From Bacteroidota bacterium (lineage in GTDB: Bacteria > Bacteroidota > Bacteroidia > Bacteroidales > FEN-979): DNA of 36,696 nucleotides. Where the stretch lies: the NCBI GenBank assembly GCA_014382125.1, contig JACNKI010000177.1, positions 1 to 36,696 of the forward strand. Reading direction: 5' to 3'. The notes under the pieces are model-generated. The model ran no database searches, was not told where the DNA came from, and saw only the letters and a program-made list of their open reading frames with translations. Shown here piece by piece: positions 14,904 to 33,940 of the stretch. How positions within the stretch are numbered: the first letter of the stretch is position 1; each line of letters starts with the position of its first letter. The translations under genes and the position numbers were made by a program.

Positions 14904-16409
14904 TTACTGATAGAGATTTTGATGGCACTCTGAACAGAAAACAACTTTCCAGATGTCATTACGCAGAGGTACCGGATGCCGGAATTCGAGTGTGTCAAAC
15001 ACAGATGCCATTTCCATCGCACCTTCTGGACCCTGTCCCACAATGGTATGACAAAGGTCACAGTCTTTTGAAATCACCTTTCCATCTTCACTGGCATGCA
15101 GATCAGAATGACACCGGAAACAGCCATTTGTTTCCATATGTCCGATATGATCAGGGTAAACGGTGTTATTCGCTTTCATATAGGGGAATTCATTCAGGTT
15201 GAAGGCATCCTGAATCCCGGTGATCGCCTGCTCGATCTTATCCTGATGTGATGCATAATAATCAGGATAGTCAGTTTGATAGAAGGTGGTAATCACGCTG
15301 TCGATATACATCATAGCTGTATCCTGAGTGGGGAACGGTTCCTTTAAAGCGTCCATCGCAATGTATTTGATCTGCGGAATCTCTTTCGAAACTTTGCCTG
15401 ATATCAGCGCATCGTCGACATATTCGGATGGAGATTTGTACTTGTGCGAAGGACGGTTATGACAGTCGATACAATCCATTGTACGAACCGTCAATACAGC
15501 AAGCAGGCTATCGTCGATCGGGTTCTCTTCATCCATATAGACGATTGTGTCACCTGTTTTCAGATTGGTGTATCTGACCCACGGGATCGTTTCACGACTT
15601 TCATCACCAGCAATATACTCAACCTGGATATCCGGATTGATGTGCCAGTGACTGCCCTCTTCCAATCCTAGTGCACTGTATAGGGGGCTTATCTTCATCT
15701 GAAGGATGACATCCCATTCGGTATTGGTATCATCAGTAAGAAAGTCTTTCTGAACCCGTAGGTTCTGGGCGTAAAATTTTTCAGGCCAATGACATTTTTC
15801 ACATGTCTCCCTTGCTGGACGCAGATCCTGGATAGGTGTGGCGATGGGGCGGGGATATCTGCCAAACAGCACCGAAAAAACCTGGTACAATCCGGAAACC
15901 TTGGATCGGGCATACCAGCCGGCTCCGGCTCCAACATGACATTCAACACAGGCGACATGGGCATGGGAAGAGTGCTCGTAGGTTACGTATTCAGGCTTCA
16001 TAACAACATGGCATAGTTTTCCGCAAAACTTAACAGATTCCGTGTAGTGAAACGCTTCATAGCTGCCAATACTTGTCAGGAAGAGGAAGACCATTGATGA
16101 GAAGATAAAGATGACAAAGGCGTTCCGGTGACGTCTATCATTCAAATCCAGATAAGGTCTTCGACGTTTCTTGTCTCCCTCCATCTGAGCATACTTTTTT
16201 AAGTTAAGCGCCATTCCAAGAGGGATCAGAATGAGTCCGAAAACCATTAATCCCGGTAGCGCGATGTAAATAAATAGTCCCAGGTAAGATCCCCCCTGGT
16301 CAAAGACAACGGAGATAAGGAACAAAACGAGAATCATTAAAAGACTGACAAAAGCAACCAGGGAACCGATCAGGGACATCCAGTTGTAATACGCTTTAGG
16401 AAGCTTCAT
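14904..16409 (-). CDS. NapC/NirT-type multihaem cytochrome c
   Basis: 501-residue membrane-anchored electron carrier. Three hydrophobic N-terminal segments (about 11-35, 45-68, 97-115) precede a periplasmic domain with seven haem-attachment sites. One is CGKLCH (C-X3-CH, residues 129-134), as seen in some relatives. The other six are CxxCH: CVECH, CEKCH, CIDCH, CFRCH, CDLCH, CSECH. The first half (FCGKLCHVVMKPE, VECHVGAGAGW, PARETCEKCHWPEKFY) matches NapC/NirT quinol dehydrogenases. The longer tail carries the last haems. No reductase gene adjoins it, so the terminal acceptor is unknown. Confidence 0.9.
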   Translation of the reverse strand: MKLPKAYYNWMSLIGSLVAFVSLLMILVLFLISVVFDQGGSYLGLFIYIALPGLMVFGLILIPLGMALNLKKYAQMEGDKKRRRPYLDLNDRRHRNAFVIFIFSSMVFLFLTSIGSYEAFHYTESVKFCGKLCHVVMKPEYVTYEHSSHAHVACVECHVGAGAGWYARSKVSGLYQVFSVLFGRYPRPIATPIQDLRPARETCEKCHWPEKFYAQNLRVQKDFLTDDTNTEWDVILQMKISPLYSALGLEEGSHWHINPDIQVEYIAGDESRETIPWVRYTNLKTGDTIVYMDEENPIDDSLLAVLTVRTMDCIDCHNRPSHKYKSPSEYVDDALISGKVSKEIPQIKYIAMDALKEPFPTQDTAMMYIDSVITTFYQTDYPDYYASHQDKIEQAITGIQDAFNLNEFPYMKANNTVYPDHIGHMETNGCFRCHSDLHASEDGKVISKDCDLCHTIVGQGPEGAMEMASVFDTLEFRHPVPLRNDIWKVVFCSECHQNLYQ

Positions 16410-19626: not shown

Positions 19627-20436
19627 CTATATTTTTGAACAAACAACTTGATTCTTGTATTTGATATTGATGACATTGTATCTATTCCAGCCAATTTTAT
19701 TGAGTCCTCTTTTGTAGAAGATAAAAAGACGCTGAAATTTGTCCTCCAGATCCTCAACATTCCCGAGTAACACAATGTGATCCCCAACCTTCGGAATGAG
19801 CTCGTATTCACCATTTTTATTGACATAGATCTGGTCGACCTGAGCTTTGAAGAAGGGTTTCCGGTTGATAAATAGGGCCAGTTTATAAAGATCAGACAGA
19901 AGTCGGGATGAGTTAGCAGAGGCAGCCGGGTGCTGTTCTGATCCGGCAGAGGAGCCAACGAAACAAGCATCAGGAATATGTCCGGATGCAATGAGTACCC
20001 TGGCAGGGTGATCAGGATTGATTGGGAGAATCACTCCCTGGTCCCCAATATAATAACCCTTGTTGGTTTCAGTCATGATGCGCAGAGTGGGCTGGCGTTG
20101 GAAAACATGCACGTGGACATCGCCGGGATAGGTTTCAAATACATTTGCCTGCAATACATACGGCTGCTTGGTTATGGCTCGTTCAATTTTTTCCGTATTG
20201 ATCCTCCACATGGGTAACCCTTGTATCACTCCCGATTGTTGCCGGATCAGGGAGTCAATATCGGATTCAGGGATAAGTATCTCTGAATGGCCATAGTGCA
20301 TAATGATTTCAACTTTTTTGCAGATGGTTGCATTCTGTTCATAATCAACAAATCCCAGCATCAGCCCCATGCCTGTCAGGAGCAGCCCCAACAGGATCGA
20401 GTCAAAAATTCGCCGTATTTTCTTTTTCAATCTCAT
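19627..20436 (-). CDS. ftsQ: Cell division protein FtsQ/DivIB
   Basis: Bitopic divisome protein of 269 residues. It has a short cytosolic N-terminus (MRLKKKIRRIF), one membrane segment (about 12-30), then a POTRA/FtsQ region (SEILIPESDIDSLI, PYVLQANVFETYPGDVHVHVFQRQP) and VGDHIVLLGNVEDLEDKFQRL near the end. A Ser/Ala-rich stretch (GSSAGSEQHPAASANSS, about 165-181) looks longer than usual. It overlaps murC by 4 nt (ATGA) and is followed at once by ftsA. Confidence 0.92.
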   Translation of the reverse strand: MRLKKKIRRIFDSILLGLLLTGMGLMLGFVDYEQNATICKKVEIIMHYGHSEILIPESDIDSLIRQQSGVIQGLPMWRINTEKIERAITKQPYVLQANVFETYPGDVHVHVFQRQPTLRIMTETNKGYYIGDQGVILPINPDHPARVLIASGHIPDACFVGSSAGSEQHPAASANSSRLLSDLYKLALFINRKPFFKAQVDQIYVNKNGEYELIPKVGDHIVLLGNVEDLEDKFQRLFIFYKRGLNKIGWNRYNVINIKYKNQVVCSKI

Positions 20437-21848
20437 GTGGAAAAAGCATCCGTGATAGGTTCAACCAATTTAGCAATATCGCCCGCGCCCAGCGTTAGTA
20501 AAACTTCAGGCCGTTGTTGTTCCAGAATCCCTATCAGCTCCTTATTGCTACAAAGTTGCTTGTGATTACTATCGATCTTTGCTAATAGCATCTCAGACGA
20601 CACGCCGGGTATAGGTTGCTCACGTGCGGGATAGATTTCAAGCAGGATCATGTTGTCCAGATTGGATAATACAGCGGCAAAGTCATCCTCCAGATCTCTG
20701 GTTCGACTATAAAGATGTGGCTGGAATACCCCTGTGATCTGTCGTCCCGGATACAACTCTCTGACTGCCTGGATACATGCATTCAACTCCTCCGGGTGAT
20801 GGGCATAATCGTCGATATAGATAAAATCCTTTCTCCGGATCCGAATATCAAAGCGACGTTCAACACCCTGGAAACTACTTGCGGCCGACTTCAGTTCCGC
20901 AGCTTCAATACCTGTCAGGTATCCGACAGCCAGCGCTGCAATAGCATTCTCCAGGTTGAACATGCCGGGCATGCCTAAAACAAAACCAGGAATCGTTTCT
21001 GTAGGGGTAACGAAATCGAAATAGATCAATCCCTCTCGAATAAAGATATTCTTAGCAAAGAAGTTGGACTCCGTGTTGAGAGCATAGGTAAACCGGTTGT
21101 AGACAACATGGTCGTCAGGTTCGATAGCGATACCTTTTTTCATGATCAGCGAACCATTCTTCCGAATTTTTCCAGTGAATTTCGTGAAGGTTTTGATCAA
21201 CTGGTCGTGATCGTCATATATATCCAGGTGATCCGGATCAACTGACGTAATGATGGCGATGTCGGGGGAAAGCTGAAGGAAGGAACGGTCGTATTCATCA
21301 GCTTCGACAACAGCGTAGATTGGCGATTTGCGATCCGTGATTCGTGATTCGTGATCCGTGACTGAAGACTGTGGACTGAGAACTGAGAACTCTACAAAAT
21401 TGGTTCCGTAATTCTTGGAGATACCTCCCAGGAATGCCATGAGTTCCTTCCCGGCGGTACGTAGAATATGGGCAATGAAGGTAGAGATCGTGGTCTTACC
21501 ATGTGATCCGGCAACTGCAATGGTAGTGAATTGGGAAGTGATCTCTCCCAACACTTCTGACCGCTTTTTGATAGGGATTCCCTGCTGCATTAACTCTTGA
21601 TATCCTGCATGCTCTTTCGGTACCGCTGGTGTCCAGACAACCAGGTCAACTTCTTTAGGGATCAGATCCGTCTCTTCCTCAAAATGGATCTCAATTCCTT
21701 CCCGGATAAGCTGGTCGGTAAGAGGGGTGGAGGTTTTATCATACCCTGTTACATTGACCCCATTCCGTTTAAAATACCTGGCCAGGGCGCTCATCCCGAT
21801 GCCGCCGATACCCAGAAAATATACCGATTTGATTTGGTTAAGATCCAT
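20433..21848 (-). CDS. murC: UDP-N-acetylmuramate--L-alanine ligase
   Basis: Adds L-Ala to UDP-MurNAc in peptidoglycan synthesis. The nucleotide-sugar domain has FLGIGGIGMSALARYF (11-26), the P-loop AVAGSHGKTT is at 111-120, followed by VVEADEYDRSFL (180-191) and DYAHHPEEL. Residues about 153-176 (VLSPQSSVTDHESRITDRKSP), just before the conserved EADEYDRSF block, are encoded by ten heptamer units and appear inserted. Total 471 residues. It overlaps murG by 11 nt and ftsQ by 4 nt, so translation is probably coupled. Confidence 0.95.
   Translation of the reverse strand: MDLNQIKSVYFLGIGGIGMSALARYFKRNGVNVTGYDKTSTPLTDQLIREGIEIHFEEETDLIPKEVDLVVWTPAVPKEHAGYQELMQQGIPIKKRSEVLGEITSQFTTIAVAGSHGKTTISTFIAHILRTAGKELMAFLGGISKNYGTNFVEFSVLSPQSSVTDHESRITDRKSPIYAVVEADEYDRSFLQLSPDIAIITSVDPDHLDIYDDHDQLIKTFTKFTGKIRKNGSLIMKKGIAIEPDDHVVYNRFTYALNTESNFFAKNIFIREGLIYFDFVTPTETIPGFVLGMPGMFNLENAIAALAVGYLTGIEAAELKSAASSFQGVERRFDIRIRRKDFIYIDDYAHHPEELNACIQAVRELYPGRQITGVFQPHLYSRTRDLEDDFAAVLSNLDNMILLEIYPAREQPIPGVSSEMLLAKIDSNHKQLCSNKELIGILEQQRPEVLLTLGAGDIAKLVEPITDAFST
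21323..21392. repeat. Ten-unit heptamer array inside murC (two families)
   Basis: GCGATTT GCGATCC GTGATTC GTGATTC GTGATCC GTGACTG, then AAGACTG TGGACTG AGAACTG AGAACTC. The phase of 7 holds across the change from the GTGATTC family to the GTGGACT family. In frame in murC. Confidence 0.85.
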
Positions 21849-23034
21849 TGGGTTCGGGTTTCGTGTGAACTAGCTTAAACACCTCTTCTACAATCCTATC
21901 GGCGGCATCGTTGATTGCCATTTTCTTTATATTTTGGCTAAGCTGCTGTAGTTTTTTCCTATCATTGATCAATCCGGATATCAGTGCCGGCAATTGTGTT
22001 GGAGCCTCATTATCAGATATCATGATCGCTGCCTCTTTGTCGACAAGTGCAAGGGCATTCTTTGTCTGATGGTCTTCTGCCACATTGGGTGAAGGGATCA
22101 GGATTGTTGGCTTCCCTGCAACACACAGTTCTGAAATGGCAATCGCGCCGGCTCGTGTAATCACCAGATCAGCACAGGAATAGGCAAGGTCCATCCGGTC
22201 GATGAAAGGAACGATACTGGATGCTCGATGCTGGATGCTCGATACTGGATGCTGGATGCTGGATGCTGGATGACTGGATGACTGGATGCTTTTTCCTTGA
22301 ATTTTGAATTTTGAATCTTGAACCTGATTCATTATTTCTTCAAAATAATGTTTTCCTGTCTGCCAGAGTAATTGAATCCCATCCGGCAGGCCTTGTTCCA
22401 GCAATGCCAGCATGCTTTCATTGATGGCCCGGGCGCCACCGCTACCGCCCATGGTCAGAACAGTTTGTTTATCAGGATCAAGCTCGAAATGGCGATAGGC
22501 TTCAGGTATGTGATCCGGCAATGCGATCAGGTCTTTACGAACAGGATTACCGGTTAACACAATCTTCTCTTTCGGGAAATAGTCAGACATACCGTCATAG
22601 GTTACACATATTGTCTGGACTTGTTTTCCAAGCAAGCGGTTAGTGATCCCGGGGTAGGAGTTTTGTTCCTGGATCAGCGCAGGCTTTCCCATTGAAGTAG
22701 CTGCCCGCAAAGTGGGACCGCTGGCATACCCGCCAACACCAACCACTACATCGGGATTAAATTTTTTAATGATCGAACGGGCTTTAAAGAGACTTCCAAT
22801 CAGTTTGAATGGGAAGGTCAGGTTTTTCCAGGTCGCCCTGCGGATCAACCCGGCGACAGTTAATCCTTCAATGGGAAAACCGGCTGCCGGAACTTTCACC
22901 ATCTCCATCTTCCCTTTGGCGCCAATGAAGAGGATATCTGCTTCCGGCTCATTTTTTCTGATTGCCTGAGCGATAGCAATAGCCGGGAAGACATGTCCTC
23001 CGGTACCTCCTCCGCTGATGATGAACCTGCTCAT
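21838..23034 (-). CDS. murG: UDP-GlcNAc:lipid I N-acetylglucosaminyltransferase
   Basis: Makes lipid II on the inner face of the membrane. It shows the N-terminal ISGGGTGGHVFPAIAIA loop, VGVGGYASGPTLRAA, QEQNSYPGITNRLL, the second-domain MGGSGGARAIN, and the donor-binding ITRAGAIAISEL and PSPNVAEDHQTKNA. Residues about 237-274 (SSHPASSIQHPVSSIQHR and flanks) sit between KHYFEEIM and VPFIDRMD and are made of heptamer arrays. This explains the length of 398 residues against about 365 in relatives. It overlaps murC by 11 nt. Confidence 0.95.
   Translation of the reverse strand: MSRFIISGGGTGGHVFPAIAIAQAIRKNEPEADILFIGAKGKMEMVKVPAAGFPIEGLTVAGLIRRATWKNLTFPFKLIGSLFKARSIIKKFNPDVVVGVGGYASGPTLRAATSMGKPALIQEQNSYPGITNRLLGKQVQTICVTYDGMSDYFPKEKIVLTGNPVRKDLIALPDHIPEAYRHFELDPDKQTVLTMGGSGGARAINESMLALLEQGLPDGIQLLWQTGKHYFEEIMNQVQDSKFKIQGKSIQSSSHPASSIQHPVSSIQHRASSIVPFIDRMDLAYSCADLVITRAGAIAISELCVAGKPTILIPSPNVAEDHQTKNALALVDKEAAIMISDNEAPTQLPALISGLINDRKKLQQLSQNIKKMAINDAADRIVEEVFKLVHTKPEPNGS
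22214..22324. repeat. Long heptamer array inside murG (ATGCTGG and TTGAATT families)
   Basis: Eight 7-bp units (ATACTGG, ATGCTCG, ATGCTGG and so on, 22214-22269) are followed by two 8-bp units (ATGACTGG), then a short gap, then TTGAATT TTGAATT TTGAATC TTGAACC (22297-22324). About 110 bp in frame; the largest array in the window. Confidence 0.88.
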
Positions 23035-23036
23035 TA

Positions 23037-24227
23037 TTACGCTGTCACTGGTTGGTTTTCTTGTAAAATATCTATCTCTGTTCCGTTCTTTGTTTCAATT
23101 TCAATCCGCCTGCTTACACTCAGGATGATACCGATCGAGATGCAGGTGAACCAGATGGATGTTCCACCCATACTGATCAACGGCAAGGTCTGGCCGGTTA
23201 CCGGAAAGAGATTTACCGCAACAGCCATGTTGATCAAAGCCTGGAATACCAGGCTGAACCCGATCCCGACACTCAGCAGAGCCCCGAAATTGCCGGGGCA
23301 TTTATTCGCTATTCTGATCACCCGGAAAAAGAGGATCAAATAGAGCAGCATCACGACTCCACCTCCTACAATACCATACTCTTCTATGATGATCGCAAAA
23401 ATGAAATCGGAATAGGGGTGAGGCAGGAAATTCCGCTGGGTACTTTTTCCGGGAGATTTACCCAATAATCCTCCGGAAACAATAGCGATCTTAGCCTGAT
23501 CAACCTGATAGGTAGCATCACTGTTTGCTTTCTCTTTATTAAAAAACGTTTCGATCCTGTTTTTCCAGGTTGTACTTCTTGGCATAAGATTAGGCGCTAT
23601 CATGGCAATGGTCAGGATCAATATGATTACGATAAAACCTGCTCCGATCAATGCCATGATATACTTCAGGTTCACTCTGCCGATGAACATTAAAACAATA
23701 CTGGTGGCAAAAAGAATAGCGGCTGTTGAGAAGTTCGCCGGAAGGATCAGTGCACAGATGATACCGACCGGAAGAATGGCAGGCAGGAATCCTCGTTTGA
23801 ACTCTTTTATCTGCTCCTGATTTTTACTCAGCACACGGGCAACATACATGATCAGAAAGAGTTTGGCTACATCAGAACTCTGGAAGGTGATGTTGATGAT
23901 GGGCACCGTCAGCCAGCGGTTGGCTTCGTTGAGGTTGGTGCCGGAGATCAGGGTAACCAGCAGCAGTGGAACCGTCAGGATCAACCCGATCTGGGAGAGC
24001 CTCGAGTAGTAGGTATATTTGACCAGATGCATCAGGTACATCAGAGTGAACCCTAATCCCAGAATGATGAATTGTTTCATCAGGTAATATTCGGTGTTGC
24101 CGCCCTGCTTTTTATATGCAAGCAGACCGGTAGAACTGTATACAGCCAGAAGAGAAAAAAAGGAGAGGATGATCACGATGATCCAGATCACTTTATCTCC
24201 TTTGATATTTTTGAAATAGCTAAACAT
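23037..24227 (-). CDS. ftsW: Lipid II polymerase/division protein FtsW (SEDS)
   Basis: Polytopic SEDS glycosyltransferase (about ten helices, 396 residues) that polymerises lipid II at the septum with FtsI. Family blocks are visible: NEANRWLTVPIINITFQSSDVAKL (quoted in part: ANRWLTVPIINITFQSSDVAK), HPYSDFIFAIIIEEYGIVGG and NLFPVTGQTLPLISMGGTS. It begins 5 nt after the murD remnant and ends 2 nt before murG. Confidence 0.93.
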   Translation of the reverse strand: MFSYFKNIKGDKVIWIIVIILSFFSLLAVYSSTGLLAYKKQGGNTEYYLMKQFIILGLGFTLMYLMHLVKYTYYSRLSQIGLILTVPLLLVTLISGTNLNEANRWLTVPIINITFQSSDVAKLFLIMYVARVLSKNQEQIKEFKRGFLPAILPVGIICALILPANFSTAAILFATSIVLMFIGRVNLKYIMALIGAGFIVIILILTIAMIAPNLMPRSTTWKNRIETFFNKEKANSDATYQVDQAKIAIVSGGLLGKSPGKSTQRNFLPHPYSDFIFAIIIEEYGIVGGGVVMLLYLILFFRVIRIANKCPGNFGALLSVGIGFSLVFQALINMAVAVNLFPVTGQTLPLISMGGTSIWFTCISIGIILSVSRRIEIETKNGTEIDILQENQPVTA

Positions 24228-24232
24228 GTTTC

Positions 24233-24781
24233 TTAAAGTTTTGCTACAGATTTCCGAAAAGCCTCTCCTCGTTCTTCGAAATTTTCAAACATGTCGAAAC
24301 TGGCACAACCAGGTGATAACAATACAGCATCACCTTTCTTTCCCAGGTGGTACCCGATATCCACAGCCTCTTTCATATCCGTTACCTGGATGATGGGAAT
24401 GTCGGTCTTGTTGAATGTTTTCAGGATTTTCTGATTACTCTTACCCAGGCAGATTATCGCTTTCACTCTGCTGACAATCAATTCTTTGACCTCAGAATAG
24501 TCTGTTCCTTTTACACCTCCACCAGTGATCCAGATCACAGGACTGTTCATGTTCTCCAGCGCATACCAGGTTGAATTGATGGTACAGGCTCTTGAATCAT
24601 TAATGAACTCAATTCCATGGATGTTAGCAACCAACTCCATCTTATGATTGCCTGTATGTGAATCCAGGAGGGACTCTTTTATCAGCTCTTTCCGGAGTTC
24701 ATCGATCCTGTTTGTTACAGACGCTGCAAGCGAGGAGTAAGTTCTGGGGCGTCCTTGTAAAGCTAATGATTCTAAGGTCAT
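24233..24781 (-). pseudogene. murD: Truncated MurD: C-terminal domain only
   Basis: This sits at the murD position between mraY and ftsW but encodes only 182 residues (MurD is about 450). It matches MurD from the end of the ATPase domain onward. The UDP-MurNAc-binding domain and the GTNGKT P-loop are absent. There is no room for them: ATG 24781 lies 2 nt after the complete mraY stop. Residues that remain have drifted: the usual GKHNxYN block reads GRPRTYSS, HR reads HK, and DSKATN reads DSRACT. INSTWYALENM and PGCASFDMFENFEERG are still clear. It cannot be a ligase alone. It may be a decaying remnant or a retained domain with another role; a full MurD must exist elsewhere if muropeptides are made normally. 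Confidence 0.8.
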
Positions 24782-24783
24782 AG

Positions 24784-26037
24784 TTATCTGAGTTTGAGTG
24801 TTACAATGGATAAAACAGCCAGCATAATGCCGATGATAAAAAATCTGATTACGATCTTGGATTCATGATATCCAAGCATCTGGAAATGATGATGAAGAGG
24901 TGACATTTTGAAGACACGCCGACCTGTACCAAATTTTCGCCTGGTGTATTTAAACCAGCTGACCTGCAAGACAACCGACAGGTTCTCAGCGAGGAAGATT
25001 CCGCAAAAGATGGGGATCATGATCTCTTTCCGGATCATGATAGCGAATACGGCGATGATTCCCCCCAGAGCCAGACTCCCTGTGTCTCCCATAAAGACCT
25101 GGGCCGGATAGGAGTTGTACCAGAGGAAGCCGATGCAGGCACCCACGAAGGCGCTGATATAGATAGCCAGCTCGCCCGTTTTCGGGATATACATGATGTT
25201 CAGGTAATCGGCAATGATGTAGTTGCCTGACACATATGCCAGCACGGCTAGCGTGATCCCAATGATAGCAGAGGTCCCGGTCGCCAGGCCGTCAAGTCCG
25301 TCGGTGAGGTTAGCTCCGTTGGAAACAGCGATGATGATAAAGATCACCAGGGGGATGAAGATTAACCAGGTCCACTTTTTCGCTCCTTCACCCATCCAGG
25401 AGATGAGAGAGGAGTAGTCAAACTCATTATTCTTGACAAACGGGATAGTGGTTTTGGTTGATTTGACTGGTGTTTTGTTGAATATTAGTTTCTTTTCACC
25501 GGTGTTTTCCGTGCCAGGGACTTCATTTGATTGAGAAACAACCTCTCTGTCTATCCGTTCCCGGATGACGATGTTGTCGCTGTAGTACATAATAAATCCG
25601 ACGATCAATCCCAGGACAATCTGACCCATTACCTTGAATTTTCCCGCCAATCCTCTCTTTTCTTTTCGGAATACTTTGATGTAATCGTCCAGAAATCCAA
25701 TAAATCCAAGCCATACCGTTGCGATCAGGATAAGAATGATATAGATATTGTCGAGTTTGGCAAAGAGAAGTGTCGGGATGAGAATCGCTGCCAGGATGAT
25801 CAGGCCTCCCATGGTTGGTGTTCCCTTTTTGTTTTTCTGTCCTTCCAGCCCCAGGTCACGGACCTCTTCACCAACCTGTTTTCTACGGAGGAATCCGATC
25901 AATCGTTTTCCAATGATCATCGTAATAAACAGGGACGTGATCAACGCCGCGCCTGCCCGGAATGAGATGTACTGGAAAACTCCGGCGCCAGGGAAGTTAA
26001 AGGCTGTGTCCAGATATTCAAACAGATTATACAGCAT
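24784..26037 (-). CDS. mraY: Phospho-MurNAc-pentapeptide transferase
   Basis: Membrane enzyme making lipid I from UDP-MurNAc-pentapeptide and undecaprenyl phosphate. 417 residues, about ten helices. Motifs: [21 protein letters not shown], the catalytic [25 protein letters not shown] and the loop [19 protein letters not shown]. The extended extracytoplasmic insert (about 160-215, with [13 protein letters not shown]) is typical of Bacteroidota MraY. Intact to the C-terminus, which matters for judging the murD truncation next to it. Confidence 0.96.
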
Positions 26038-26040
26038 ATC

Positions 26041-27516
26041 TTACTCTTTGTTGATTACTGTGTTTATTCCAAATACTTCGCGCACCACGGTCTGGTCGTC
26101 AAATGGATGTTTCACCCCTTTGATCTCCTGGTATGTTTCATGCCCTTTTCCTGCTATCAGGATATAGTCGCCAGGCTGAGCCAGGGAACAAGCAGTTTTG
26201 ATCGCTTCTCTCCGGTTGCTGATCACCAGCAAATTTTTCATGAACTCTGCAGGAACACCTTTTTTCATCTCCTCCAGAATCGCTTCCGGCTCCTCATCCC
26301 GCGGATTGTCAGAGGTAAGGATGACCCGTGAGCTAAGCTGGGTGGCAATCTTTGCCATGACAGGGCGCTTCAACGGATCCCGATTTCCTCCGGCTCCGGC
26401 AATCGTGATCAACTGACCGACGCCCTGGCGGATATCATTGATTGTTTCAAGCACGTTTTGCAATGCATCCGGCGTGTGAGCATAATCTATCACAGCGATA
26501 ACCTTTTCCGGAGAGATCACATAGGTAAATCGTCCGTCAACAGGATACATCTGGCTCAATCCTGTCAGTATTTCTGTTCTCTCTAACCCAAGCAACACGG
26601 CGGTGGCATAGGTTGTGAGAAGATTATACGCGTTGAACCGGCCGATCAGGCGAAACCATACCTCCTGACCTTCAATAGTCATATGCAAGCCCTGAACCGT
26701 ATTCTCCAGAATTTTACACCGGAAGTTTGCCATAGAACTCAGACTGTATGTATAGGCGGAAGCAGGACAGTTCTGTAGAATTACCTTCGCGTGTTTATCG
26801 TCTTTGTTGACCAGCGCAAATGCTTCCGGGCTAAGCTGGTCGAAAAAGGTTTTTTTGACATTGATATACCTGGCAAAGGATTTATGGTAATCAAGGTGAT
26901 CATGGGTCAGGTTTGTGAAGATCCCTCCTGCAAAGGTCAGCCCGGCAATCCTTTGTTGATCAATGGCATGCGAACTGACTTCCATGAAACAATACCGACA
27001 GCCGGCTTCCACCATTTGTCTGAGCAGTTGGTGAAGTTGAATGGTATCAGGTGTGGTATGAGTGGCTTCAATCGTCTTCTGATGAACCTTGTTCCTGATC
27101 GTAGAGATCATACCGGTCTTGATCCCGAGCTCTTCAAAGAGTTGATAAAGCAGGGAAACAGTGGTTGTCTTTCCGTTGGTTCCGGTGATACCAATGAGTT
27201 GCAATGCCTGTGAAGGGTGATCGAAGAAATTGGAGGCGATAATTCCCAGGGCATGAGCAGAATTTTCAACCTCGATATAGGTGATATTATTTTGTAGCTT
27301 TTTTGGGAGTGTTTCACATAAGATTGCATGAGCTCCTGATGAGATGGCCTGAGGGATGTATTGATGCCCGTCGGTTTGTGTTCCTCTGATGGCAGCGAAC
27401 AGGGTTCCCTGTTCCACCTTTCTGGAATCAAAGTGCAACAAAGAGATCTCCTTCTCATCACTTCCATGCATCCGAAGAACCTTCACACCTGTCAATATTT
27501 TTCTTAACGGCTTCAT
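26041..27516 (-). CDS. murE: UDP-MurNAc-tripeptide ligase, meso-diaminopimelate type
   Basis: Adds the third amino acid of the stem peptide. Mur ligase domains are complete: the N-terminal HFDSRKVEQGTLFAA, P-loop GITGTNGKTTTV (about 109-120), YAHTPDAL, AGAGGNRDPLKRP, and DNPRDEEP. The DNPR motif marks enzymes that use meso-diaminopimelate and not lysine. This intact, normally conserved ligase is a good internal contrast to the degraded murD two genes on. It overlaps ftsI by 4 nt (ATGA). Confidence 0.95.
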   Translation of the reverse strand: MKPLRKILTGVKVLRMHGSDEKEISLLHFDSRKVEQGTLFAAIRGTQTDGHQYIPQAISSGAHAILCETLPKKLQNNITYIEVENSAHALGIIASNFFDHPSQALQLIGITGTNGKTTTVSLLYQLFEELGIKTGMISTIRNKVHQKTIEATHTTPDTIQLHQLLRQMVEAGCRYCFMEVSSHAIDQQRIAGLTFAGGIFTNLTHDHLDYHKSFARYINVKKTFFDQLSPEAFALVNKDDKHAKVILQNCPASAYTYSLSSMANFRCKILENTVQGLHMTIEGQEVWFRLIGRFNAYNLLTTYATAVLLGLERTEILTGLSQMYPVDGRFTYVISPEKVIAVIDYAHTPDALQNVLETINDIRQGVGQLITIAGAGGNRDPLKRPVMAKIATQLSSRVILTSDNPRDEEPEAILEEMKKGVPAEFMKNLLVISNRREAIKTACSLAQPGDYILIAGKGHETYQEIKGVKHPFDDQTVVREVFGINTVINKE

Positions 27517-31633: not shown

Positions 31634-33940
31634 CTAATGGCGAACAACCAGTTTCTGGGGAGAGAATGTGACGTTGTTGGATAGGTCGAGTAGCGTGATG
31701 ATATAGATGCCATTCGGAAGATAGCCGAATGAGATGGGAGCGGAATCCTGTATGGTGGTTGAAAAGAGAGATTGCCCGAAAAGGTTCAGTACCTCAACCT
31801 GGAGGGGGTTAATATAGGTGTCAGGGGGCAGTTTGATGAATAGGATCTCGCTTGCCGGATTCGGGAAGATCTTGAAGGATTCACCAGGTTTTGTTAGGAA
31901 ATAAGGCACTTCGAGTAAGACTTCCGGATAACTCTTGTTGCTGAAATAGTTCAGTCCGCCGGAGAAATTTCCAATAATAAGGTCCATCTTCAGAGAATCA
32001 GACAGGAAGCTGATGGAAGGAGCTGTTCGCCAGCCGCAACGAAGAGGAAATGGATCAGATGTGATCAGGTTGAATAAATTCCCGGAAGGGATATATGGAA
32101 CTTCCGGATCCGCTGGAATCGTATCAAAATACCAGATTTTCCCATCTTCACTACCAACCAGTAGTTGGTCGGTACCCAAATGATCCTTGAAAAAGCAGGG
32201 AATGGAGTAACCGGAATAGGATAACTGATAGTTGGTGACATTGACTTTACCAAGACTATCAGTAACATATGAGAACACTGGGATTGCCGTTATTCCTGTA
32301 TTCTCATAATAGGTTAGGTTACCATTTCGCTCACCGATAATCAGATCCAGCAATCCATCATGGTTAAAATCATATAGTTGAGGTGTGCTGTTCTCTCCGA
32401 CATCAATTCCCTGATAGTGCCACTGAGGAGAGAGAAATCCGGGAGGGTGAGAACCTGTTCCATCATTTTCCAGCAATGCAAGCGTGCCGTCCTCCTGTCC
32501 GATAATCAAATCCGGGTATTCATCTCCCGTAATATCTCCAAAAGCCGGAAACAAGCCTGTCAGCTTCAATGATGACAATCCTGCCAGGTCATCTGTTTTG
32601 CAGGAGAAAACGGGTGACGAAAGGTTTCCGGTATTTTCAAAATAGGCAATCCGGCCGGTAAATACAGAGTGAAGAGTGGCTTCCATGTAGTAGGAAGAGT
32701 CATATTTGCCCCAGCATCCGATCAGCAGATCTTTCAATCCATCACCGTTCAGGTCATAGAGGAGCGGATAGCTGTTAGAGCCTACATCGATCATCAGATC
32801 CTGGAAAAATCGCTTTGTCTGGAATTCAAATTGAGGCTGTTCATGGTTCCCTATGTTTTTATAGTGCCAGACAGAGTTGTAATTGTCTGCAATATCGAGG
32901 GTTGGATTGAATGGAGAGACAATGAGGTCCTTTAACCCATCTTGATCTGTGTCGACCCGGGAGGCAACAGGAAAATCAAAGAGATGAACAGGTTGAGTAT
33001 TAGGTGGAAAGAGTGTATCCATGGTGGTCATGAACGCACTGTCAATGGTCCCATTATTATAAAGAGCAATCAGGTTTGGGAAATCAATATCTGCCAGGAT
33101 CAGGTCTTTGAGTCCGTTGTTTGTTAAATCGATAGCGAGAAGGGTGGAGCCGGTATGTTTTGGTGAACTGGTGAATTGGCGAACTGGTGAGTTGGTGATT
33201 GTGGACTGTGGACTAAAGACTGTGGACTGGTAAGCAAGTGAACTTGGGCAATCAGCGTTGAGGGTAATCTTATTTGATCCTTCGTTCTCTTTGAACTTTC
33301 CCCAGCAATTGGTCTCCAGGCGATAATCCAGACTATCGCAAGTCCCGTATTTCTCCATAGAGAGGTTTTTATGATACTCGAGGAATGATCCGAGCCCAAA
33401 AAAGGTCAGCAGATCTAGGTCTCCATCCCCGTCGATATCTGATAATGCAGGATACTCGACTGGCGTGACAAGGATTCCGATATATCCCGAATAGAACCAT
33501 GACGTCAGCATGTTTGTGATCAGTTCGAATTTCAATATCGAATCTGAAACATTCAGGAATACCCTGATTCCTCCAAGTCCATATGTGAACAGATCCATTT
33601 TTCCATCACAGTTATAATCAGCTGTCATCACCCAGTCGTGGAGATCAGGAAATCTACTGATGAAAGAGGTGTCTAATTGATAGTCAACCGAGCCGGCATA
33701 TCCGATGTAGATGAGTGGCAGCAGTCTATTGCCATGACGATCAAAAACCAGCAGATCATTCACGCCATCAAGATCCATGTCTACGGCACAAAACTGACAG
33801 GAATTCATCCCTCCGGCCCAAGCCAATGGCGTAAATGGGTTGACTATTGTTTGAGCAGATGCCTGTTGCCAGATACCTGATAAGGCGATAAATGACGCTA
33901 AAGTAATCTGAATCCAGCTGTTGATATTCAATTTCCTCAT
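31634..33940 (-). CDS. Secreted FG-GAP/VCBS-repeat protein with T9SS sorting tail
   Basis: 768-residue predicted secreted or surface protein. Signal peptide MRKLNINSWIQITLASFIALSG...ASAQ (about 1-29). The body holds many FG-GAP-type Asp-rich blades (DMDLDGVNDLLVF, DYNCDGKMDLFTY, DIDGDGDLDLLTF, DLNGDGLKDLLIG, DFNHDGLLDLIIG), which would form calcium-binding beta-propellers. The C-terminal 80 residues (FKIFPNPASEILFI...GIYIITL...QKLVV) are a type A T9SS sorting domain. Residues about 237-260 (STVFSPQSTITNSPVRQF) come from a repeat array. Its ligand or enzyme activity is unknown. Confidence 0.88.
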   Translation of the reverse strand: MRKLNINSWIQITLASFIALSGIWQQASAQTIVNPFTPLAWAGGMNSCQFCAVDMDLDGVNDLLVFDRHGNRLLPLIYIGYAGSVDYQLDTSFISRFPDLHDWVMTADYNCDGKMDLFTYGLGGIRVFLNVSDSILKFELITNMLTSWFYSGYIGILVTPVEYPALSDIDGDGDLDLLTFFGLGSFLEYHKNLSMEKYGTCDSLDYRLETNCWGKFKENEGSNKITLNADCPSSLAYQSTVFSPQSTITNSPVRQFTSSPKHTGSTLLAIDLTNNGLKDLILADIDFPNLIALYNNGTIDSAFMTTMDTLFPPNTQPVHLFDFPVASRVDTDQDGLKDLIVSPFNPTLDIADNYNSVWHYKNIGNHEQPQFEFQTKRFFQDLMIDVGSNSYPLLYDLNGDGLKDLLIGCWGKYDSSYYMEATLHSVFTGRIAYFENTGNLSSPVFSCKTDDLAGLSSLKLTGLFPAFGDITGDEYPDLIIGQEDGTLALLENDGTGSHPPGFLSPQWHYQGIDVGENSTPQLYDFNHDGLLDLIIGERNGNLTYYENTGITAIPVFSYVTDSLGKVNVTNYQLSYSGYSIPCFFKDHLGTDQLLVGSEDGKIWYFDTIPADPEVPYIPSGNLFNLITSDPFPLRCGWRTAPSISFLSDSLKMDLIIGNFSGGLNYFSNKSYPEVLLEVPYFLTKPGESFKIFPNPASEILFIKLPPDTYINPLQVEVLNLFGQSLFSTTIQDSAPISFGYLPNGIYIITLLDLSNNVTFSPQKLVVRH
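33162..33228. repeat. Composite 8-bp and 7-bp array in the FG-GAP gene
   Basis: GGTGAACT GGTGAATT GGCGAACT GGTGAGTT (8-bp units), GGTGATT, then GTGGACT GTGGACT AAAGACT GTGGACT (7-bp units). In frame. The 8-bp family matches 10152-10187, and the 7-bp family matches murC, ftsZ and 35175-35209. Confidence 0.85.

Follow-up and report, generated by a model that had tools for sequence, protein, structure and literature searches.

murD is an essential cell-wall gene, and the locus described here has only a short stretch of it. In the window (the whole 36,696-nt stretch of DNA analysed, which is contig C14 of genome G000, a 2.7-Mb assembly of 243 contigs that is 84% complete), the murD slot of the dcw cluster is filled by an open reading frame of 182 amino acids. 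Two questions follow: which enzyme adds glutamate to the peptidoglycan precursor, and why is part of murD still there?

A MurD C-terminal domain under selection

The frame lies between intact mraY and ftsW genes (Table 1), with the mraY stop codon 2 nt before it and the ftsW start 5 nt after it. The other dcw genes are open and in order: rsmH, ftsL, ftsI, murE, mraY, ftsW, murG, murC, ftsQ, ftsA and ftsZ. The MurD model TIGR01087 matches the frame over positions 265-440 of 441 (E 5e-47), i.e., over the last 40% of the model, with the frame beginning at position 265, and at 161 bits the match fails the membership cut-off of 211.95. Mur_ligase_C (PF02875, E 1e-8) is the only Pfam domain present, the N-terminal and P-loop domains being absent. 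An AlphaFold2 model of moderate confidence (pLDDT 74) has a 26-residue helix at the domain-2 end, and in a Foldseek comparison every one of its best PDB matches is a MurD (among them that of P. aeruginosa, E 1.2e-10). The protein therefore passes as a homologue by descent of the MurD C-terminal domain (CTD), being like domain 3 of canonical MurD in sequence, fold and operon place. It differs from canonical MurD in lacking the first two domains and in changes at N268, N271, R302, K319 and T321.

A first-pass annotation, made from the DNA letters of the window, had described a tightly spaced murD-slot frame lacking the N-terminal and P-loop domains in an otherwise intact cluster, with altered motifs. 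This description holds, and the motifs read GRPRTYSS, NHKME and NDSRACT. Its phrase "reduced to its C-terminal domain" is right for domain 3 but needs amending, since about 45 residues from the end of the central domain are also kept.

Table 1. Features of the window and of the murL-murD2 locus (L038) of the same genome.
Feature	Position	Strand	Basis
Stand-alone MurD CTD (last helix of domain 2 + domain 3), catalytic residues eroded	24233..24781	-	TIGR01087, PF02875, Foldseek, dN/dS
First 45 residues of the remnant, with the conserved start MTLExLALQG and last central-domain helix; R/S at the N268/N271 positions	24647..24781	-	
mraY, intact	24784..26037	-	marker gene
ftsW, intact	23037..24227	-	marker gene
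murE, intact	26041..27516	-	NF001126, 627 bits (above cut-off 373)
murC, intact	20433..21848	-	TIGR01082, 364 bits (above cut-off 335)
murG, intact	21838..23034	-	marker gene
murL, 462 residues	L038:7559-8947		NF041275, E 2.7e-76
murD2	L038:8940-10271		TIGR01087, 298 bits

An assembly artefact, i.e., a murD segment missing from the contig, would suit a genome this fragmented and incomplete, but the same locus in relatives speaks against it. A CTD-only frame occupies the murD slot in 24/25 genomes of the family. In these 24 the frames have 184-227 residues (against 450 for MurD), contain no stops and are 47-71% identical to the window protein. The 25th genome (G001, 69% complete) has no dcw contig and lacks mraY too. 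Other families show the truncation in the corresponding position as well, with mraY and ftsW on either side and contig ends at a distance. Because it recurs inside the contigs of other assemblies, it is not a misassembly, and we consider the artefact scarcely credible. The findings that the first-pass annotation had named as fatal to its reading (a missing segment, a misassembly, or relatives with full-length murD) did not appear, full-length murD being found only outside the family. The named contigs sharing the structure are MAGs labelled Bacteroidales or Bacteroidetes, whose isolate names suggest samples from lakes, the Black Sea, fen or permafrost; one MAG with the family's dcw locus (L153) is labelled Alphaproteobacteria, probably in error.

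Eight residues (N268, N271, R302, D317, K319, T321, K348 and S415) are invariant in 103/103 full-length Bacteroidia MurDs, and the window protein has R, S, K, D, R, C, K and S, respectively, at these positions. Among the family's remnants, D317 is kept in 25/25 and S415 in 21/25, with lower counts for K319 (8/25), K348 (3/25) and N271 (0/25). Genus g8 has E and H in place of S415 and F422, which several other lineages have lost too, and K319, T321 and K348 vary freely. Selection, a check suggested by the first-pass annotation, was measured as dN/dS in within-genus pairs of the family with unsaturated dS: the CTD gives 0.06-0.16, as against 0.03-0.09 for the neighbours mraY and ftsW, indicating purifying selection on the remnant. 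Relative to mraY and ftsW combined, the CTD evolves approximately 1.5-1.9 times faster in CTD-only genomes than in full-length ones. Since its catalytic residues are lost and yet it remains under purifying selection, the protein is kept, but not as a ligase; that it is a pseudoenzyme, without residues for ATP and D-Glu handling, is well supported by these substitutions.

Probable glutamate addition by MurL and MurD2

The first-pass annotation had suggested that a full murD might lie elsewhere in the genome or that another ligase might perform the step. Seven Mur_ligase_M proteins occur in the window genome and all can be assigned (MurE, MurF, MurF-Alr, MurC, an Mpl-like protein, FolC and MurD2), so the assembly contains no second canonical murD and no split MurD or orphan N-terminal/central fragment. 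This removes the first option. The second gains support from the one MurD-type ligase that the search found: MurD2, whose gene sits directly behind murL on contig C219. The glutamate racemase gene murI gave no TIGR00067 match in this genome (84% complete) and none above the cut-off in 24 family relatives. Every family member checked has the same neighbours around the murL-murD2 pair. This common synteny assigns the contig to the window genome and rules out binning contamination. murL and murD2 were not detected in G011 and G022.

MurL of the window genome scores 257 bits with NF041275, a Xanthomonadales-specific model with a cut-off of 700, and is therefore placed on a distant branch of MurL. 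MurD2 has its own complete C-terminal domain. In 12/12 MurD2 proteins compared, the window genome's own included, D182E and K348R are present and the other catalytic residues are intact, except for K319, which is Ile in all 12. In Xanthomonas oryzae, MurD2 adds L-Glu, which MurL then inverts, and E197 and R358 of MurD2 (E. coli D182 and K348) set the preference for L-Glu; K319T in E. coli MurD also admits L-Glu (PMC8788868). Gene content thus gives good support for a D-Glu step in the window genome in which MurD2 would add L-Glu and MurL would invert it.

The pairs known from X. oryzae (XOO_1319/XOO_1320), Micromonospora and Salinispora share with the one described here the adjacency of murL and murD2, the D182E and K348R changes and the lack of murI. 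Unlike the Xanthomonas system, the present one has a distant MurL, Ile for K319 in all MurD2 proteins and a MurD remnant kept in the dcw cluster. Published accounts place the MurL-MurD2 route in Gamma- and Alphaproteobacteria and in rare actinobacteria (PMC8788868, PMC5808125), and neither of these two reviews has an order of Bacteroidia in its taxon list. One order of this class therefore joins the organisms that appear to use MurL-MurD2.

Distribution and recurrence of the truncation

Our order-wide sample numbered 148 genomes, namely those with a completeness of 85% or more and the window genome. MurL was present in 52/148 and murI in 90/148, with no genome having both and six having neither. 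A CTD-only murD occurred at 22/49 readable dcw loci of MurL-positive genomes and in 0/90 murI-positive genomes. The 22 consist of 21 genomes in which the frame was verified between mraY and ftsW and off contig ends, plus G288 with a diverged CTD; short frames at contig ends (G319, G363 and G271) were left out. The other 27 MurL-positive genomes have full-length MurD (25 complete or nearly so, two cut by a contig end), and three were unreadable: G239 and G340, which lack mraY, and G294, with mraY outside the cluster and no murD found. MurL was not found in 196 other genomes sampled from the class. Mutual exclusion of MurL and murI, together with the restriction of CTD-only murD to MurL lineages, supports replacement of the MurD-MurI route. 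One genome in the order, G039 (L052, 98% complete), has a CTD-only murD yet lacks MurL, MurD2 and MurI and has only four Mur_ligase_M proteins.

In approximately half of the MurL lineages (e.g., L198-L219), the MurD is still full-length and its catalytic residues are intact, and no glutamate racemase was found in them. These MurDs are slightly relaxed in all domains, the CTD not being specially protected compared with the others. An intact MurD without murI is outside what our best explanation accounts for; D-Glu for these enzymes could come from a D-amino acid transaminase or from salvage.

To count truncations, a tree of the CTD itself has too little resolving power (AU p 0.61 for a single clade), so independent events cannot be read from it, and we used a state tree built on the neighbouring genes mraY and ftsW, with murD left out. 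On this tree the state (full-length or CTD-only) changes 13 times (12-14 in bootstrap trees), and at least 10 changes are forced by well-supported branches; a quick version of the tree gave 13 changes, 8 of them forced. Pairs from the same genus can have opposite states (G253 vs G357, G268 vs G365), and the N-terminal junctions vary by lineage, e.g., MTLEALALQG, MSITLEKLASQG, MNSIEKKLVRER and MSIVIKEKK. Some remnants look young, such as that of G350, which keeps all nine CTD residues examined. Tree counts alone give no direction, but repeated loss is likelier than repeated in-place regain of the full gene; some lineages may have regained a full murD by transfer. Approximately 99% of full-length Bacteroidia MurDs have the Met with which the remnant begins. 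An internal translation start that would yield a CTD isoform from ordinary murD was considered but is not supported, the A-rich start context being absent at -6 and -5.

Free CTDs also occur by another path. At least 11 further Bacteroidia families have a stand-alone MurD CTD that is separate from a full-length murD and immediately follows it. In six of these families, for which the locus was fully read, and in several named MAGs, the CTD lies between murD and ftsW; in the other five, its adjacency comes from match coordinates. Examples are L058:948-1454 (-), L068, L106, L119 and L130. Several "Chitinophaga pinensis" MAGs (L103, L106 and L112) scatter across the MurD tree, and their labels may be wrong. 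These "tandem" CTDs resemble that of the window in being frames of 160-240 aa with a MurD CTD only, directly before ftsW in the dcw cluster, with eroded catalysis and purifying selection (dN/dS mostly 0.04-0.16 where measurable). They differ in adjoining a full-length murD, in forming a clade of their own (97/84), in lacking most of the domain-2 helix region and in occurring in genomes without MurL, so a free MurD CTD beside ftsW is not peculiar to the MurL route. Descent of the window remnant from the tandem clade is disfavoured, as the remnant groups with full-length Bacteroidales MurDs (97/96) and keeps the upstream helix; an AU test did not reject a single clade of the two (p 0.215).

Why the domain is kept

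Our best explanation has three steps, and we give the whole account a probability of roughly 60%. The first step, which is well supported, is that MurD2 would add L-Glu to UDP-MurNAc-L-Ala and the ATP-dependent epimerase MurL would invert it to D-Glu on the nucleotide, making canonical MurD and the racemase MurI dispensable, with loss of murI. The second, also well supported, is that once MurD2 and MurL performed the D-Glu step, murD would have been shortened from its 5' side as far as a conserved internal Met slightly ahead of the boundary between domains 2 and 3, so that domain 3 and the final domain-2 helix remained, in approximately ten independent events in MurL lineages. Such repeated trimming in relatives, together with selection, suggests a second job for the CTD. 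In the third step, the CTD would serve as a docking module in a cytoplasmic Mur/divisome complex (MurG, MraY, FtsW, MreB), a job that the CTD of MurD2 would not do, and other Bacteroidia would separate the same domain through a tandem partial copy of murD between murD and ftsW. We infer docking from the operon place and from the reported binding of Thermotoga maritima MurD to MurG and MreB (PMC6420597), and we hold this step tentatively, at a little short of even odds. The more general proposal, that the Bacteroidia MurD CTD plays a non-catalytic and separable part in the dcw-encoded cell-wall machinery, exposed by MurD2-MurL and split off elsewhere by tandem partial duplication, stands at about evens. 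The first-pass suggestion of a new role thus draws support from selection and recurrence, with docking as its proposed form.

Our ranking puts docking ahead of four other readings. The nearest of these makes the CTD a regulatory or trans-acting subunit that binds MurD2, MurL or another Mur ligase and adjusts or completes the activity of its partner, as its fold (that of a ligase substrate domain) and the strict tie of the CTD-only form to MurL/MurD2 lineages would allow. MurD2, however, already has a complete C-terminal domain, the genome offers no orphan N-terminal/central fragment to complement, tandem CTDs exist in genomes without MurL, and N268, N271 and K348 are eroded, so we regard such a subunit as unlikely. 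Less probable again is that the DNA rather than the protein is kept, for translational coupling or as an ftsW promoter. The 2-nt and 5-nt spacing and the constant place between mraY and ftsW fit a cis element of this kind, but coupling does not need approximately 180 residues with a preserved fold, and it is the amino acids that are conserved (low dN with high or saturated dS).

Retention of D317 and S415 in most of the family's remnants might instead point to a ligand sensor, i.e., a CTD with a retained site for glutamate or UDP-MurNAc-peptide that signals how much precursor is present. Against this, lineages such as genus g8 have lost S415 and F422, and the free variation of K319, T321 and K348 is hard to reconcile with a maintained site; we rate a sensor marginally below a cis element. 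The lowest place goes to a passing relic, a decaying pseudogene en route to loss once MurD was redundant. Catalytic residues do decay after truncation (young cases like G350 are nearly intact) and the CTD evolves faster than its neighbours, but the 24 family copies contain no stops or frameshifts, their dN/dS is low, and the same domain is always kept, none of the 49 readable MurL-positive mraY-ftsW loci having lost it. A relic is therefore very improbable, and docking remains our preferred reading of step three.

Mur ligases are believed to act in complexes, and their structural roles are hard to separate from their essential chemistry. Repeated truncation provides a natural separation of one MurD domain, making a non-catalytic role of MurD directly testable. 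A known case of a Mur-ligase-derived protein with another job is MurT, the MurD-like partner of GatD and, like other proteins of its kind, a non-canonical Mur ligase homologue. MurT still has both the central, ATP-binding domain and a C-terminal domain of its own, whereas the window protein retains only domain 3. Our literature search returned no paper on a stand-alone MurD CTD, and nothing on point for truncated or paralogous MurD; its coverage lacked most subscription journals, so an earlier report may exist. One "truncated MurD" paper mapped the MigC contact outside the CTD, to a minimal region of residues 53-103. For annotation, a "murD" label in a dcw cluster does not guarantee that a MurD enzyme, or a drug target of that kind, is present.

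Other features of the window genome were seen in passing. In-frame insertions of degenerate short repeats (CATCCAG/TCACCA-like) occur in murG (22213-22317), murC (21318-21386) and an FG-GAP protein (33146-33226), and MurL and the MurF-Alr protein contain inserts of a similar kind. Directly downstream of ftsZ lies a gene for a multihaem NapC/NirT-type cytochrome (14904-16409, minus strand).
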